NCBI GenBank assembly: GCA_018712785.1
Contig: DVGK01000008.1
Location: forward strand, 1 to 35,739
Reading direction: 5' to 3'
DNA from: Candidatus Choladousia intestinavium
Lineage (GTDB): Bacteria > Bacillota > Clostridia > Lachnospirales > Lachnospiraceae
DNA length: 35,739 nt
Below the pieces are notes generated by a model. The model searched no databases, was not told where the DNA came from, and worked only from the letters and a program-made list of their open reading frames with translations. Both the position numbers and the translations under genes were made by a program. Positions 9,572 through 16,731 of the stretch are shown one piece after another. The first letter of the stretch is position 1; every line of letters starts with the position of its first letter.

Positions 9572-12004
9572 TTAAATTTCGCCGCGAGTCAGCGCTGACC
9601 CGCACCCCTTATCCCTGTTTTTCCAGAATTGTCTGGTCTTGTCCTCCACTGTTTCCAGCGTACACAGTTCCGGGGTTTCCCATTCTGCCGGAAACATCTG
9701 ACGATAGCGCAGGGAAGAAAATCTCTCATCCAGCAGCAGAATCACTCCTTCGTCCTCGTCGGTCCGGATTACCCTCCCCGCCGACTGAAGAACCTTATTC
9801 ATTCCCGGACAGAGATACGCGTAAAAAAATCCATCTTCCTGCCTCCTGTCATAGAACTGTTTCAGAATCTCTCTCTCATTGCAGACCTGGGGAATCCCTG
9901 TCCCCACAATCACAGCCCCGATCAGGCTGTCTTTTTTCAAATCAATTCCCTCGCCGAAGATTCCGCCCATGACGCAGAACCCTACCAGGCTTTTCTTTCC
10001 CGGCTCTTGAAATTTTTTCAGAAATTCCTCCCGCTGGCTCTCTCCCATTCCCGGCGTCTGACACACGACCTCCGTGTGTATGCCTTCTTCCCTGCATATC
10101 TCTTCGTACCGTCCGGCTACCTCCTCCAGCATTTTATAGGAAGAGAAAAAGACCATATAATTTCCCTTTCTGGTCTGAACCATCCGACACACATAGGAAG
10201 CCATTTTCCGGTACTCCTCCTCCCCCCTTCTTGTATACCGGCTGCTGGTGTCCGTCCCGATCATGACCAGTTTCCGCTCCGGATCAAAGGCAGACCTGAC
10301 ATAGACAGCGTCATCCTCCTGATCGCCCGTCAGCAGACTTTTGTAATAACGGATCGGAAGCAGGGTGGCTGAGAAAAAGACGGCGCTTTTTCCTTTATCC
10401 AGGCATTCCCGCAGATTTTCGGAGACATCCACGCAGAAAAGCTTAATCATAAACTTCCTCTCCGGAGTATGCTCCGTGTAAATCACATAATTCTCATCCA
10501 GCCGGTCACACACCTCCAGGAAACTTCTCACCTGAAAATAAAAATCCAGAGTCTTCTGGTTCAGTTCACTGTTTCTGGAGTTTTCCAGAAATTCTTCTAT
10601 GGCCCCGGAAAGGTTCAGCAGATACACTGGAAAAAGCCCTGTATCCTTCTGGAGCTGAAAGGAACCCTGACACTCCCGCTTCAGCCCCAGCAGGTATGAG
10701 TTGCACCGCTCAAGGCTTCTGGTCACCTTCCGGCTGTGAAGCTTCATCTCCCGCTTCAGCTCCAGAAAATCTTCTTTGTACAGGGCGGCAGAAAACATCT
10801 CTCTCCCCCGCTCTGCCAGATTATGGGCCTCATCAATGAGAAACAGATAATTTCCCTTAACTCCCTCCCCAAAGAACCGTTTTAATCTGGCTCTTGGATC
10901 AAACACATAATTATAGTCACAGATCACCGCGTCTGACCATACAGCCGCGTCCAGGGACATCTCGAAAGGGCATACCTGCCATTTCTCAGCCTGCCTAAGA
11001 ATACGGTTCCGGTCCAGGGTGTCCGCCTCATGAAGGAGCTCAAAGACTGCCTGATTAACCCTGTCATAATGGCCTTTTGCATAGGGACACGCATCCGGAT
11101 TGCACTCCGTCTCCTCCAAGGGACAAATCTTTTCCTTAGCCGTCACGGTAAGTACCTTCATCTTCAGGCCCTGTCTCTTTAAAAGCCCGAATGTCTCCTC
11201 TGCCACAGTCCTGGTAATGGTCTTGGCAGTCATATAAAAAATCTGCTCCCCCAGCCCTTCTCCCACCGCTTTCACCGCCGGAAAGACTGTGGATAAGGTC
11301 TTGCCGGTCCCTGTGGCCGCCTGCACAAACAGCCTCTTTCCCTGGGCGATGTTCCGATACACCAGGGCAGCCGCCTGTTTCTGTCCCGGCCTCCAGGGAT
11401 AGGGGAAGGCCAGCCGCCGGATGGAATCCTGCCGGATTCCCCGCCACCGGCTACGGGCAGAAACCCATTTTTTATATTCCTCCACAACCATGAAAAACCA
11501 TTCTCTCAGCTCCTCGAGGCTGAAAATCTGACGGAATCTGCGGATTTCCTCTGTCTCCAGGTTGCAGTAAGTCATCTGAACCCCCGCCTGCCGCTCTCCC
11601 TGCTGCTCTCCCAGGATAAAAGCGTAGCATTTGGCCTGGGCCAGATGGATAGGATTTGGTTCCTCCATGAGTCCCAGATCCCGGTACACTCCCTTGATCT
11701 CGTCAATCCATAAAATCTCTTCCGCCTTCTGTCCCGGAACATCCTCTGTTTTTTCCCGGAAAACTCCGTCTGCCCTTCCCTCAATCGCAAGGGTGAAGGT
11801 CTCCTCCTGGGATTCCCATGCTACAGACACCTCCGCTTGATAGCCGGCGCCCATCCTTGCCTGAAGCTTCCGGTGTATCCTGCTGCCCTCCTGCATGGCT
11901 TCCTTCTCTCCCAGGCCTCCTCTGCGGCTGTCAATATCCCCGAAACGCAAAATAAATTCCACGAGATTCCTTACAGAAACCCGCACCCTTTGGTTTTCTT
12001 CCAT
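9572..12004 (-). CDS. DinG/XPD-type helicase with N-terminal PD-(D/E)XK nuclease domain
   Basis: An 810-residue superfamily 2 DNA helicase of the iron-sulfur XPD/DinG group. Walker A is AATGTGKT (229-236), the DEAH box is 391-394, and four cysteines (294, 301, 306, 345) between them fit the 4Fe-4S cluster of this family. Before the helicase, residues about 1-180 look like a RecB/Cas4-type PD-(D/E)XK nuclease: GRADG (Asp79), then DEIKG (Glu102-x-Lys104) and the following QAKCYAF. The late motif QSAGRVIRT fits helicase motif VI. Probable role is processing of recombination or repair intermediates; the 5'-3' direction is inferred from the family. GGAGG ribosome site nine bases before ATG; promoter at 12092-12120. 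It is divergent from the panE-like gene. Confidence 0.87.
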   Translation of the reverse strand: MEENQRVRVSVRNLVEFILRFGDIDSRRGGLGEKEAMQEGSRIHRKLQARMGAGYQAEVSVAWESQEETFTLAIEGRADGVFREKTEDVPGQKAEEILWIDEIKGVYRDLGLMEEPNPIHLAQAKCYAFILGEQQGERQAGVQMTYCNLETEEIRRFRQIFSLEELREWFFMVVEEYKKWVSARSRWRGIRQDSIRRLAFPYPWRPGQKQAAALVYRNIAQGKRLFVQAATGTGKTLSTVFPAVKAVGEGLGEQIFYMTAKTITRTVAEETFGLLKRQGLKMKVLTVTAKEKICPLEETECNPDACPYAKGHYDRVNQAVFELLHEADTLDRNRILRQAEKWQVCPFEMSLDAAVWSDAVICDYNYVFDPRARLKRFFGEGVKGNYLFLIDEAHNLAERGREMFSAALYKEDFLELKREMKLHSRKVTRSLERCNSYLLGLKRECQGSFQLQKDTGLFPVYLLNLSGAIEEFLENSRNSELNQKTLDFYFQVRSFLEVCDRLDENYVIYTEHTPERKFMIKLFCVDVSENLRECLDKGKSAVFFSATLLPIRYYKSLLTGDQEDDAVYVRSAFDPERKLVMIGTDTSSRYTRRGEEEYRKMASYVCRMVQTRKGNYMVFFSSYKMLEEVAGRYEEICREEGIHTEVVCQTPGMGESQREEFLKKFQEPGKKSLVGFCVMGGIFGEGIDLKKDSLIGAVIVGTGIPQVCNEREILKQFYDRRQEDGFFYAYLCPGMNKVLQSAGRVIRTDEDEGVILLLDERFSSLRYRQMFPAEWETPELCTLETVEDKTRQFWKNRDKGCGSALTRGEI

Positions 12005-14433: not shown

Positions 14434-15213
14434 CTAAAAATCCCGCCCCTCCGTCATCCAATTTCTAAATCTCAGCGGCCACAGCTGTCTCTGAAGAGCC
14501 GGATTCTCCCGTTCCGTGACAGCTATGCTTTTGCAGAATCCCCGCCACATCTTCTGGAAAAGAGCTTCATTCTCCGTCACTTCGGTAACCGCCTCCCTGT
14601 CCGGACATACATTCCGGAAAACAGCCCAGGGATGATGGGCTCTGTGAAGCAGAGAATCTCCCCGCCCCGAATCATAGATTATAAAATTCTCTCCGGGAAG
14701 GCGATTGGAAAAATGTTCTCCTAAAAGTGGGAGCACCTGATTCTCTGCCTGGATTTCCGAGAAAAGAATGCCCCCCGAAAGCTCACGGAAGCGCACAAAT
14801 CCCAGATAGTGGTGGGCTTCATTTCCTACCCTTCTGGCCATATCAAACACCTGAGCCACTTCCGGATCCTGAAGCTTCCACAGAATCCTCCTGGCTGTAT
14901 ATTCCTTTACGCCGGGACTTAAAGCCTGTACCAAAACCCGATAAATACAGTCCGCCCTCTCTGGCCGATAGGAAAGGGCAGCCTGGTAAACGGACTGATA
15001 GGAATCCTCTCCCATTCTCCTTCGTATGGTGCGGGCGACTTTTTCCGCCTTTTCAAAATCAGGCTCTACCCTCCTGTAGGAGGCAAACAGCTCCAGATTC
15101 CCCTGCCCCGCAATCCGAAGAGCTGCATGGTCATGGCCCACTCTGCTGTCCCATGCATCGTAGATCCCTGTAAAAATTCCCTCCAGACTGTCTTCGCATT
15201 CAAAAATAACCAT
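14434..15213 (-). CDS. TIGR03915/DUF4130-type putative DNA repair protein
   Basis: A 259-residue protein of the family found next to the UDG-linked radical SAM protein. The start MVIFECEDSLEGIFTGIYDAW, the middle block with ARRVGNEAHHYLGFVRF and the stretch FIIYDSGRGDSLLHRAHHPW are typical of DUF4130 proteins. In many genomes the homologue carries an extra C-terminal uracil-DNA-glycosylase domain; here the protein ends without it. It lies nine bases after the radical SAM gene, with its own AGGAGG site, in one operon controlled by the SOS-type operator. A DNA repair role is inferred from the association; the activity is unknown. Confidence 0.85.
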   Translation of the reverse strand: MVIFECEDSLEGIFTGIYDAWDSRVGHDHAALRIAGQGNLELFASYRRVEPDFEKAEKVARTIRRRMGEDSYQSVYQAALSYRPERADCIYRVLVQALSPGVKEYTARRILWKLQDPEVAQVFDMARRVGNEAHHYLGFVRFRELSGGILFSEIQAENQVLPLLGEHFSNRLPGENFIIYDSGRGDSLLHRAHHPWAVFRNVCPDREAVTEVTENEALFQKMWRGFCKSIAVTERENPALQRQLWPLRFRNWMTEGRDF

Positions 15214-15222
15214 ACCTTCCTC

Positions 15223-16551
15223 CTATCCCAGTCCTGTCTGCTTCAGCTTCTCAGGAACCGGTCCCAGCATCTGCCCAGCGTCAAAGAGAGAAAGCTGCCG
15301 GTATGTGGCCTCCTCTCTGAATGGTGTTTTCTCTGAGGAGAGCAGATTTCTCAGAATAAAGTCCTCATCCATCTTCAGGGGATACATCTGACGTCCCCCG
15401 CAGGTAATAAAATAAACCGCCCGTTTTAATACGACTCCCGCTTTCTTCAGTGACTGGAAATCCAGATTTCCCAGCTTCCTGGCCTGGACGATCCTTCTGG
15501 CGGATTTGGGCCCGATCCCGGGTACCCGCAGAAGCGTATGATAATCCGCCGTATTTACTTCTACCGGGAAGTTCTCCAGATGGGACAGAGCCCAGTCACA
15601 CTTGGGGTCCAGAAAAACATTAAAATTCGGATGTCTCTCATTCAAAAGCTCAGCGGCAGAAAATCCGTAAAACCGCAGGAGCCAGTCAGCCTGATACAGA
15701 CGATGCTCCCGCAAAAGAGGCGGCCCATCCGGCAGGGCGGGCAGCAGAGCGTCCTGGTTTACCTGAACGAAAGCCGAGTAAAATACTCTCTTCAGACGGA
15801 ACTTCTGATACAGTGCTTCCGCCACACTGAGAATCTGATAATCATTCTCCCGGGTAGCGCCGATAATCATCTGCGTGCTCTGTCCCGCAGGCACAAACCG
15901 CGGCGCGTTTCTATACAGCGCCAGATCGTACTGGTTCTGCTCATGGCCTAGCTGAATCTGACGCATAGGCGTCAGAATCCTCTTTCTGGACTTGTGCGGG
16001 GCCAGCTTCCTCAGCCCCTCCGCTGTGGGAAGTTCCAGATTCACGCTCATGCGGTCGGCCAGAAACCCGGTGCGCTCAATCAGCTCCCGGGGAGCACCCG
16101 GTATGGCTTTCACGTGAATGTACCCTTCAAAGCCATATTCCCTCCGGAGCTTAAAAATGGTCTGATATAGAAGCTCCATGGTATACGCGGGACTTACCAG
16201 AATTCCTGAGCTGAGAAAAAGGCCCTCAATATAATTTCTCCTGTAAAATTCCATGGTGAGGGTACATACCTCTTCCGGCGTAAAAGCCGCCCGCGCCGTA
16301 TCATTAGAGGAACGATTGATACAGTAGCGGCAGTCAAATACGCATTCATTAGTAAACAGAATCTTCAGAAGAGAAATACAGCGCCCGTCAGAGGAAAAGC
16401 TGTGGCAGATCCCTGCCGCCGTACAGTTACCCATCCCTTTCCCGCTTCCCCTGCGGTCAACGCCGCTGGAAGTACAGGCCACGTCGTATTTGGCCGCATC
16501 ACTTAGTATCTGCAGCTTTTCATAAAGATCCATCTCCTTGGAAATTTTCAT
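15223..16551 (-). CDS. Radical SAM protein, UDG-linked DNA repair/modification type
   Basis: A 442-residue radical SAM enzyme matching the UDG-linked family (TIGR03916 type). The cluster motif CVFDCRYC (Cys70, 74, 77) binds the 4Fe-4S that cleaves SAM. Further cysteines lie at 26, 43, 49 and 58. The C-terminal part has a helix-hairpin-helix, LLRVPGIGPKSARRIVQAR, which is a DNA-binding element. The start was set at ATG 16551, behind GAGG; upstream in-frame codons overlap the promoter and operator. The promoter (16597-16625) carries a perfect GAAC-N4-GTTC box at 16578-16589, so LexA control is likely. Substrate unknown; the HhH, the DUF4130 partner and the operator together support a DNA-damage role. 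Confidence 0.88.
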   Translation of the reverse strand: MKISKEMDLYEKLQILSDAAKYDVACTSSGVDRRGSGKGMGNCTAAGICHSFSSDGRCISLLKILFTNECVFDCRYCINRSSNDTARAAFTPEEVCTLTMEFYRRNYIEGLFLSSGILVSPAYTMELLYQTIFKLRREYGFEGYIHVKAIPGAPRELIERTGFLADRMSVNLELPTAEGLRKLAPHKSRKRILTPMRQIQLGHEQNQYDLALYRNAPRFVPAGQSTQMIIGATRENDYQILSVAEALYQKFRLKRVFYSAFVQVNQDALLPALPDGPPLLREHRLYQADWLLRFYGFSAAELLNERHPNFNVFLDPKCDWALSHLENFPVEVNTADYHTLLRVPGIGPKSARRIVQARKLGNLDFQSLKKAGVVLKRAVYFITCGGRQMYPLKMDEDFILRNLLSSEKTPFREEATYRQLSLFDAGQMLGPVPEKLKQTGLG

Positions 16552-16577
16552 TTTTACATTCCTCATTTCGCATATTC

Positions 16578-16589
16578 GAACATATGTTC
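16578..16589 (-). promoter_or_regulatory. LexA/DinR-type SOS box
   Basis: GAACATATGTTC is a perfect palindrome that fits the Gram-positive LexA box GAAC-N4-GTTC. It starts seven bases downstream of the -10, so a bound repressor would block transcription of the radical SAM pair. Confidence 0.82.
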
Positions 16590-16596
16590 TTTTTTT

Positions 16597-16625
16597 ATTA
16601 TAGCAAATACATGCGTGGAATGCAA
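16597..16625 (-). promoter_or_regulatory. Promoter of the radical SAM operon
   Basis: Minus strand TTGCAT (16620-16625) and TATAAT (16597-16602), 17-base spacer. Confidence 0.85.
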
Positions 16626-16680: not shown

Positions 16681-16731
16681 AAAAAAACAGCCCAAGACCG
16701 GACAGCAAAACTGCTGCTCTGTCCCAGGCTG
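16681..16731 (-). terminator. Terminator of the DUF1858 transcript
   Basis: Minus strand: outer CAGCC/GGCTG and inner GGACAG/CTGTCC pairings form a long interrupted hairpin, followed by seven T. It lies 50 bases after the DUF1858 stop. Confidence 0.75.

Follow-up and report, generated by a model that had tools for sequence, protein, structure and literature searches.

A radical SAM gene and a DUF4130 gene, which lie side by side in the genome of Candidatus Choladousia intestinavium (Lachnospiraceae), very probably form an SOS operon repressed by LexA. They are located on the minus strand of contig DVGK01000008.1 (assembly GCA_018712785.1), of which positions 1 to 35,739 were analysed; this whole stretch is called the window in the following. 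The assignment is made because the LexA-type box ahead of the operon is conserved within the bacterial family and because related operons in Proteobacteria carry the LexA motifs of their own lineages. At the sequence level, regulation by LexA is thus strongly supported across two phyla. As each of these distant operons bears its lineage's own SOS switch, the pair very probably helps cells to survive DNA damage. SOS control of the pair is partly in print, for Clostridium acetobutylicum and Bacteroidetes and, by citation, for Verrucomicrobia and Alphaproteobacteria, and the window operon is a well-supported new member of this partly known SOS set.

The operon and its promoter

The first gene (15223..16551, minus strand) encodes a radical SAM protein of 442 amino acids that belongs to TIGR03916 (rSAM_link_UDG), with 685.9 bits against a curated cut-off of 343.5 (E 2.1e-206). 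TIGR03916 was its sole match in an NCBIfam profile search, and Pfam Radical_SAM stays slightly below its cut-off (29.1 versus 29.5). The cluster motif CX3CX2C is read in translation as CVFDCRYC (residues 70-77, 16321..16344, minus strand), and its three cysteines are invariant in two alignments of the protein. A helix-hairpin-helix (HhH) was found at residues 329-367 (15451..15567, minus strand; PF12836, HHH_3, 33.6 bits versus a cut-off of 27). After an intergenic gap of 9 nucleotides (nt), GAGGAAGGT, follows the DUF4130 gene (14434..15213, minus strand; 259 amino acids), whose product matches TIGR03915 with 221.4 bits, above the curated cut-off. The two genes are likely co-transcribed.

Seven A separate TATAAT (16597-16602), which together with TGC (16603-16605) makes up an extended -10 element (TGC-TATAAT, 16597..16605, minus strand), from the predicted LexA box GAACATATGTTC (16578..16589, strandless). 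An earlier note on this DNA had described a perfect box seven nt past a consensus -10, ahead of a radical SAM gene with an HhH motif, and exactly this can be read at 16578-16589; the ATG of the gene is at 16551 on the minus strand, with an in-frame alternative start at 16566. The -35-like hexamer TTGCAT (16620..16625, minus strand), 17 nt 5' of the -10, is weak, as it agrees with TTGACA in 3/6 positions. The operon promoter is not among the promoters listed by a consensus promoter scan. From the position of the -10, the transcription start is predicted at, or close to, the first base of GAACATATGTTC; the box thus overlaps it, and a bound repressor would block transcription.

Taken alone, the box is not significant. 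By chance, the window should hold 0.52 perfect GAACN4GTTC sites, and 41/100 shuffles contained at least one. Sites with one mismatch are about as frequent as expected (14 versus 12.5), and looser CGAACNNNNGTTCG matches are no more frequent than by chance (7 versus 12.1). What makes the box significant is where it lies, which inner letters it has and how well it is conserved, not the bare pattern.

Conservation of the box in Bacillota

Of 120 genomes from the window's own family, 70 contain a TIGR03916 match, which in 67 is above cut-off. We compiled 66 family loci, one per genus and including that of the window, and inspected 200 nt upstream of each. Not included were G063 (cut at a contig end), G025 (a fragment), two genomes with weak, partial matches (G072 and G074) and any additional partial match in a genome that was already represented. 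A perfect GAACN4GTTC is present in 32/66 promoters and a site with one mismatch in a further 32/66, which leaves two with neither (64/66 in total). In dinucleotide shuffles of the same promoters, a perfect site appeared in 0.16 promoters on average (maximum 2), and a site with one mismatch or fewer in 3.82 (maximum 9). Control palindromes with rearranged half-site letters (n = 11) reached at most 10/66, and in 11 other 200-nt pieces of the same loci at most 6 of 63-66 held a site with one mismatch or fewer.

In a survey of the phylum, 67 of 299 genomes, that of the window included, had TIGR03916 above cut-off. The phylum set again comprises 67 loci, namely 66 above cut-off and one just below it (G160), with the window's own locus excluded and 250 nt inspected upstream. 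Here, 16 promoters carry a perfect box and 30 a box with one mismatch (46/67). The search of homologous promoters proposed in the earlier note was thus strongly positive in the family and mostly so in the phylum; in Proteobacteria it was positive via the LexA motifs of the respective lineages. Among the plasmid-borne copies opened, the Lachnospira eligens locus agrees, carrying GAACACATGTTC.

Rank of the box within its genome

Genome-wide, there are 33 distinct GAACN4GTTC sites, versus 20 for the reversed pattern. For ranking them, a scoring matrix was derived from 63 boxes found at this promoter elsewhere in the family, the genome of the window being excluded. The window site attains the top score of all 33 (24.0). 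Rank 2, with a score of 19.0, is GAACACTTGTTC (L001:1501-1512), located 208 nt before a gene with matches to DNA polymerase IV/UmuC models that stay below the model cut-offs (best E 8e-70); this is likely a second SOS gene of the genome. The third site (18.0) lies within a 334-codon open frame.

A separate observation concerns rank 4, GAACTAAAGTTC (L015:1501-1512, score 15.5), which is found 14 nt before an open reading frame (ORF) resembling, by eye, ribosomal protein L18. In Clostridioides difficile, weak binding of LexA close to rplR is described in PMC4234289, and the two species may share a weak LexA target.

Rank 5 is the recA promoter. The genome contains both recA and lexA with operators of their own, although the first is low-scoring and the second has two mismatches.

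Operators in Proteobacteria and other lineages

LexA sites differ between bacterial groups, with GAACN7GAAC (or its complement) in Alphaproteobacteria and CTGTN8ACAG in Beta- and Gammaproteobacteria. One profile scan of genome contigs yielded at least 593 candidates, of which the best 80, all from named organisms, were used: 52 Alphaproteobacteria, 23 Beta- and Gammaproteobacteria, 3 Xanthomonadaceae and 2 Verrucomicrobia. The stretch inspected begins 150 nt ahead of the match start and ends 16 nt past it. A perfect GAACN7GAAC-type site occurs in 49 of the 52 alphaproteobacterial loci (shuffle mean 0.30). CTGTN8ACAG is perfect in 15/23 of the Beta- and Gammaproteobacteria and present with at most one mismatch in all 23 (shuffle means 0.02 and 0.84). 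Tested outside its proper lineage, each motif remains within what shuffles produce.

The same holds for copies in other replicons. We read 19 loci from plasmid and phage records, the plasmid loci being picked for spread from 60 listed entries of 158 records. The plasmid-borne copies opened carry the perfect motif of their lineage in 11/11 Alphaproteobacteria and in 2/2 Caballeronia.

Further lineages gave a mixed picture. The two verrucomicrobial loci each deviate at one position from the motif applied to them, and a single Spirosoma locus (Bacteroidota) shows one mismatch to GAACN4GTTC. Neither these nor the one Gemmatirosa locus read allow a clear operator assignment. In Fusobacterium there is no lexA match, and the best operator-like site has at least two mismatches. 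In an A. baumannii record lexA is not above cut-off, and in a different Acinetobacter record the site has at least three mismatches.

The three Xanthomonadaceae loci share another palindrome, GTCTCA-N5-TGAGAC, approximately 39 nt ahead of their radical SAM genes (3/3). Their genomes hold 2, 3 and 1 copies, compared with 0 for the reversed control. Of the other copies (L300, L302 and L303, each at position 1501), one lies 129 nt before a likely uvrA start in Stenotrophomonas; the others precede, by 17 and 31 nt, partial ORFs with matches below cut-off to TIGR03817 DEAH helicases (Stenotrophomonas and Xanthomonas). The palindrome is a candidate operator of another DNA-damage regulator.

The DUF4130 partner

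The DUF4130 protein of the window has no match to uracil-DNA glycosylase (UDG) families or to UdgX, the cross-linking UDG. The earlier note had pointed out that the partner lacks the glycosylase domain found in other members. This is true, but it is no peculiarity of this locus. A same-strand ORF of at least 100 amino acids starts within 200 nt in 127 of 133 Bacillota loci. We scanned 109 of these neighbours, the other 18, near copies, being left out by choice: 107 give a DUF4130 match, 2 an Rrf2 match, and none (0/109) a match to a UDG family. The six loci without an adjacent ORF comprise one at a contig end, two with TIGR03915 slightly further downstream (one of them below cut-off), two with TIGR03915 elsewhere in the genome and one without any.

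The UdgX-type motif GE[QAG]PG, in contrast, is present in 55 of 77 proteobacterial and verrucomicrobial neighbours, 54 of which read GEQPG. By group, these are 43/50 Alphaproteobacteria, 10/12 Betaproteobacteria and 0/9 Pseudomonas. Both fused UdgX-DUF4130 partners scanned exceed the TIGR03914 cut-off. A search confined, among UDG families, to TIGR03914 (E up to 0.001) was negative in the window's genome and in 21 others of its family; in other Bacillota, 5 of 10 genomes gave matches below cut-off. The window therefore does not hold the UDG/UdgX-linked form of the system, as judged from the partner and from TIGR03914 in its own genome. Because the scanned neighbours in Bacillota (0/109) and the partners in Pseudomonas (0/9) are also without it, the absence of the glycosylase is a lineage trait, usual in Bacillota.

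The structural model of the DUF4130 protein (mean pLDDT 76.2) gives little guidance. PAP phosphatase, RecJ and NrnA are frequent among the PDB matches listed, and a DHH/DHHA1-type assignment was rejected as too weak (E at least 2.8e-3, query TM-score at most 0.34). The weak matches also include C-Ala domains of AlaRS, and a sequence search of solved structures returned nothing credible for DUF4130.

A clamp-binding-type motif in the tail of the radical SAM protein

The C-terminal segment of the radical SAM protein is variable yet keeps one short motif, which in Proteobacteria is often located at or near the extreme C-terminus. In the window, this is the pentapeptide QLSLF (residues 419-423, 15283..15297, minus strand), within a possibly disordered and thus accessible tail, as residues 409-442 are modelled nearly all with pLDDT below 50. 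According to PMC12309361, the consensus for binding the sliding clamp is QL[S/D]LF or QxxLF, and QLSLF is the C-terminal clamp motif of Bacillus subtilis PolC. Of the Bacillota proteins, 87 of 132 have QxxLF within their last 60 residues, as do 43 of 80 others; shuffles gave means of 2.4 and 1.2, respectively, and the five core stretches 0 to 2 each. In the DUF4130 partners, Q[LM]xL[FW] was found anywhere in 2/109 and QxxLF in 17/109. We found no literature on a clamp-binding motif in radical SAM proteins among open-licence papers, and the conserved clamp-type pentapeptide in the tail is apparently new.

Proposed function and alternative explanations

The following mechanism is proposed. In the undamaged cell, LexA would occupy GAACATATGTTC at the transcription start and block RNA polymerase. 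Upon damage, RecA-driven cleavage of LexA would release the operon. The radical SAM protein would bind DNA via its HhH, and its C-terminal QLSLF may dock on the replication sliding clamp and thereby direct it to stalled forks, similar to the SOS-induced translesion polymerases. There, a 5'-deoxyadenosyl radical could repair or edit a damaged pyrimidine, with the DUF4130 protein as a helper or second enzyme; in some Proteobacteria, the fused UdgX domain would deal with a uracil-like substrate or product. Operator conservation, gene order, domains and the tail motif were established by computation, whereas binding of LexA and of the clamp, the substrate and the chemistry are inferred. We consider an SOS-induced radical SAM enzyme that is tethered to the sliding clamp and repairs or edits bases at stalled forks a likely description of the system. 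The wider generalization is put forward tentatively, with confidence falling somewhat short of even: the pair could represent a broad SOS-induced repair module of an undescribed kind, in which a clamp-tethered radical SAM enzyme acts independently of light at stalled forks and UdgX is an optional add-on of certain lineages. Taken together, the operators and the tail suggest that UdgX is accessory to the system rather than its core.

Several points weigh against this interpretation. The window promoter has a single box, compared with at least two non-overlapping sites in 52 of the 66 family promoters. The recA box is perfect, but its score of 12.7 falls below that of the lowest training site (12.8), and the palindrome AAACATTTGTTT upstream of lexA deviates in two positions. 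None of the three Xanthomonadaceae loci contains any of the three LexA motifs tested. Exact QxxLF is absent from 45/132 tails in Bacillota and from 37/80 others, and the low pLDDT of the window tail may also reflect few aligned residues. Fold searches with the radical SAM and DUF4130 proteins yielded no hint at a specific substrate. In the genomes of one family (f53), the DUF4130 gene is split from the radical SAM gene. Finally, at 21 of the 67 other loci in Bacillota the 250 nt inspected hold no box, even with one mismatch allowed, despite a lexA above cut-off in 69/69 Bacillota genomes tested.

Box loss, at the threshold of one mismatch, is real in some lineages. Loss of LexA was rejected as its general explanation, as lexA is above cut-off in all 69 genomes. 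Ten box-less loci retain weaker palindromes: six genomes of one family have in common GAATATATATTC or a close variant, and four further ones have AAACATATGTTT or AAACAAATGTTT. At one further locus the upstream stretch is masked. In the box-less genomes G165 and G277, the best lexA match spans only positions ~60-200 of the model, and their LexA may have a different DNA-binding part.

The f53 genes form a case of their own. Their DUF4130 gene is located directly behind queC in 4/4 genomes from three genera, and no GAACN4GTTC with at most one mismatch lies in the 300 nt upstream of it, the region before queC not being tested. A link to 7-deazaguanine metabolism is possible. This adjacency favours a different use of the pair, namely LexA-controlled mutagenesis or programmed modification of thymine or another base under stress, with UdgX, where present, acting on the product; so does the frequency of UdgX-annotated or UdgX-motif neighbours in Proteobacteria, given above. 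We know of no modified base product of the pair, however, it encodes no polymerase, and a fused UdgX is missing from the Bacillota and Pseudomonas loci examined, so that we judge this use rather unlikely. An action on RNA, in the damage or modification of tRNA or rRNA with the SOS box merely timing expression, appears more improbable still. It would agree with the generic folds most similar to the radical SAM protein as modelled by AlphaFold (HydE, biotin synthase and lipoyl synthase, with MiaB also listed) and with the weak AlaRS matches of DUF4130, but the HhH motif, the clamp-type tail and the UdgX fusion all indicate DNA. A chance palindrome ahead of an operon outside LexA control had to be taken seriously, given the number of sites expected in the window and the modest excess in the genome (33 versus 20). 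It was rejected because of the conservation in 64/66 family promoters, and the substitution of other LexA motifs by lineage as well as the top rank under a matrix trained on other genomes make it extremely improbable.

For the preferred reading, repair by a LexA-controlled and clamp-tethered enzyme, the lineage-matched operators represent evidence of a damage role that is independent of gene association, and the clamp-type tail suggests at which cellular site the pair should be studied. Both lines combined give this orphan pair a repair hypothesis that is testable in tractable hosts such as Caulobacter, whose genome, included as a control, has matches to both TIGR03916 and TIGR03915.

Relation to known systems

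Both families are named as putative DNA repair, and no tested function was found in the open-licence literature. COG4277 is, we presume, the TIGR03916 family. The view of the earlier note that a repair role is suggested on association only is out of date, since LexA control has already been proposed in PMC3828012 and, on this presumption, PMC8565304. The former proposes LexA control of CAC3343-CAC3344 in C. acetobutylicum on the basis of footprints and expression, and states that no ortholog is listed under LexA in RegPrecise. This pair is like that of the window in its proposed control. It belongs to another organism and is likened to the window pair by its description; the passages on it cover neither a partner domain nor a clamp motif nor a comparison with Proteobacteria. 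The UDG operon COG1573-COG4277 is part of SOS networks in Bacteroidetes, with Verrucomicrobia and Alphaproteobacteria cited in the same source (PMC8565304). It likewise has two genes, stands under LexA motifs and is UDG-linked; unlike the window operon, it includes the UDG, and its operators are GGA-N5-TCC or CTAA-N5-TTAG instead of GAAC-N4-GTTC. The breadth of the lineage matching and the clamp-type tail were not found in earlier open-licence papers.

Two enzymes invite comparison. Spore photoproduct lyase, SplB, is also a radical SAM enzyme of DNA repair and is SOS-regulated in several species (PMC8565304), whereas the window protein has no SplB match by NCBIfam profile or PDB sequence, and none is among the best 50 of its 81 PDB fold matches with E up to 0.001. 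In the profile search of solved structures (E up to 0.01), the sole match was related to ComEA and fell in the HhH stretch. UdgX is connected with the system through domains of its family that are fused to DUF4130 in many Proteobacteria, but the window partner lacks one; in two UdgX papers, the words DUF4130, radical, fused, operon and SOS do not occur.

Other reports describe DUF4130 as a predicted mutagenesis-related enzyme (PMC3765255), an Acinetobacter gene of this name as up in desiccation (PMC13130816), a Fusobacterium gene of this name as up in co-culture (PMC9848294) and a Streptomyces radical SAM gene, family not stated, among LexA targets (PMC9380542). The main text of the C. difficile LexA paper (PMC4234289) contains no word beginning with 'radical'.

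Phage records and neighbouring features

Carriage of the pair by phages was considered and set aside. Ten phage records matched; the two opened give no evidence of a phage gene, one having annotated chromosomal neighbours (glyS, glyQ) and the other being an unannotated faecal scaffold. A scan of viral contigs with the DUF4130 partner gave no relative. The record with glyS and glyQ near the match, filed as an Acinetobacter phage (240 kb), and an "A. baumannii plasmid" of 3.66 Mb both look chromosomal.

In the window, a terminator-like hairpin lies 5' of the operon promoter (16690..16703, minus strand); such sites are not more frequent than in shuffles (4 versus a mean of 3.3). Approximately 2.4 kb downstream of the operon, a DinG/Rad3-like helicase (DEAD_2 and Helicase_C_2) is encoded at 9572-12004 on the minus strand, and the closest box with at most one mismatch ahead of its start is ~700 nt away.

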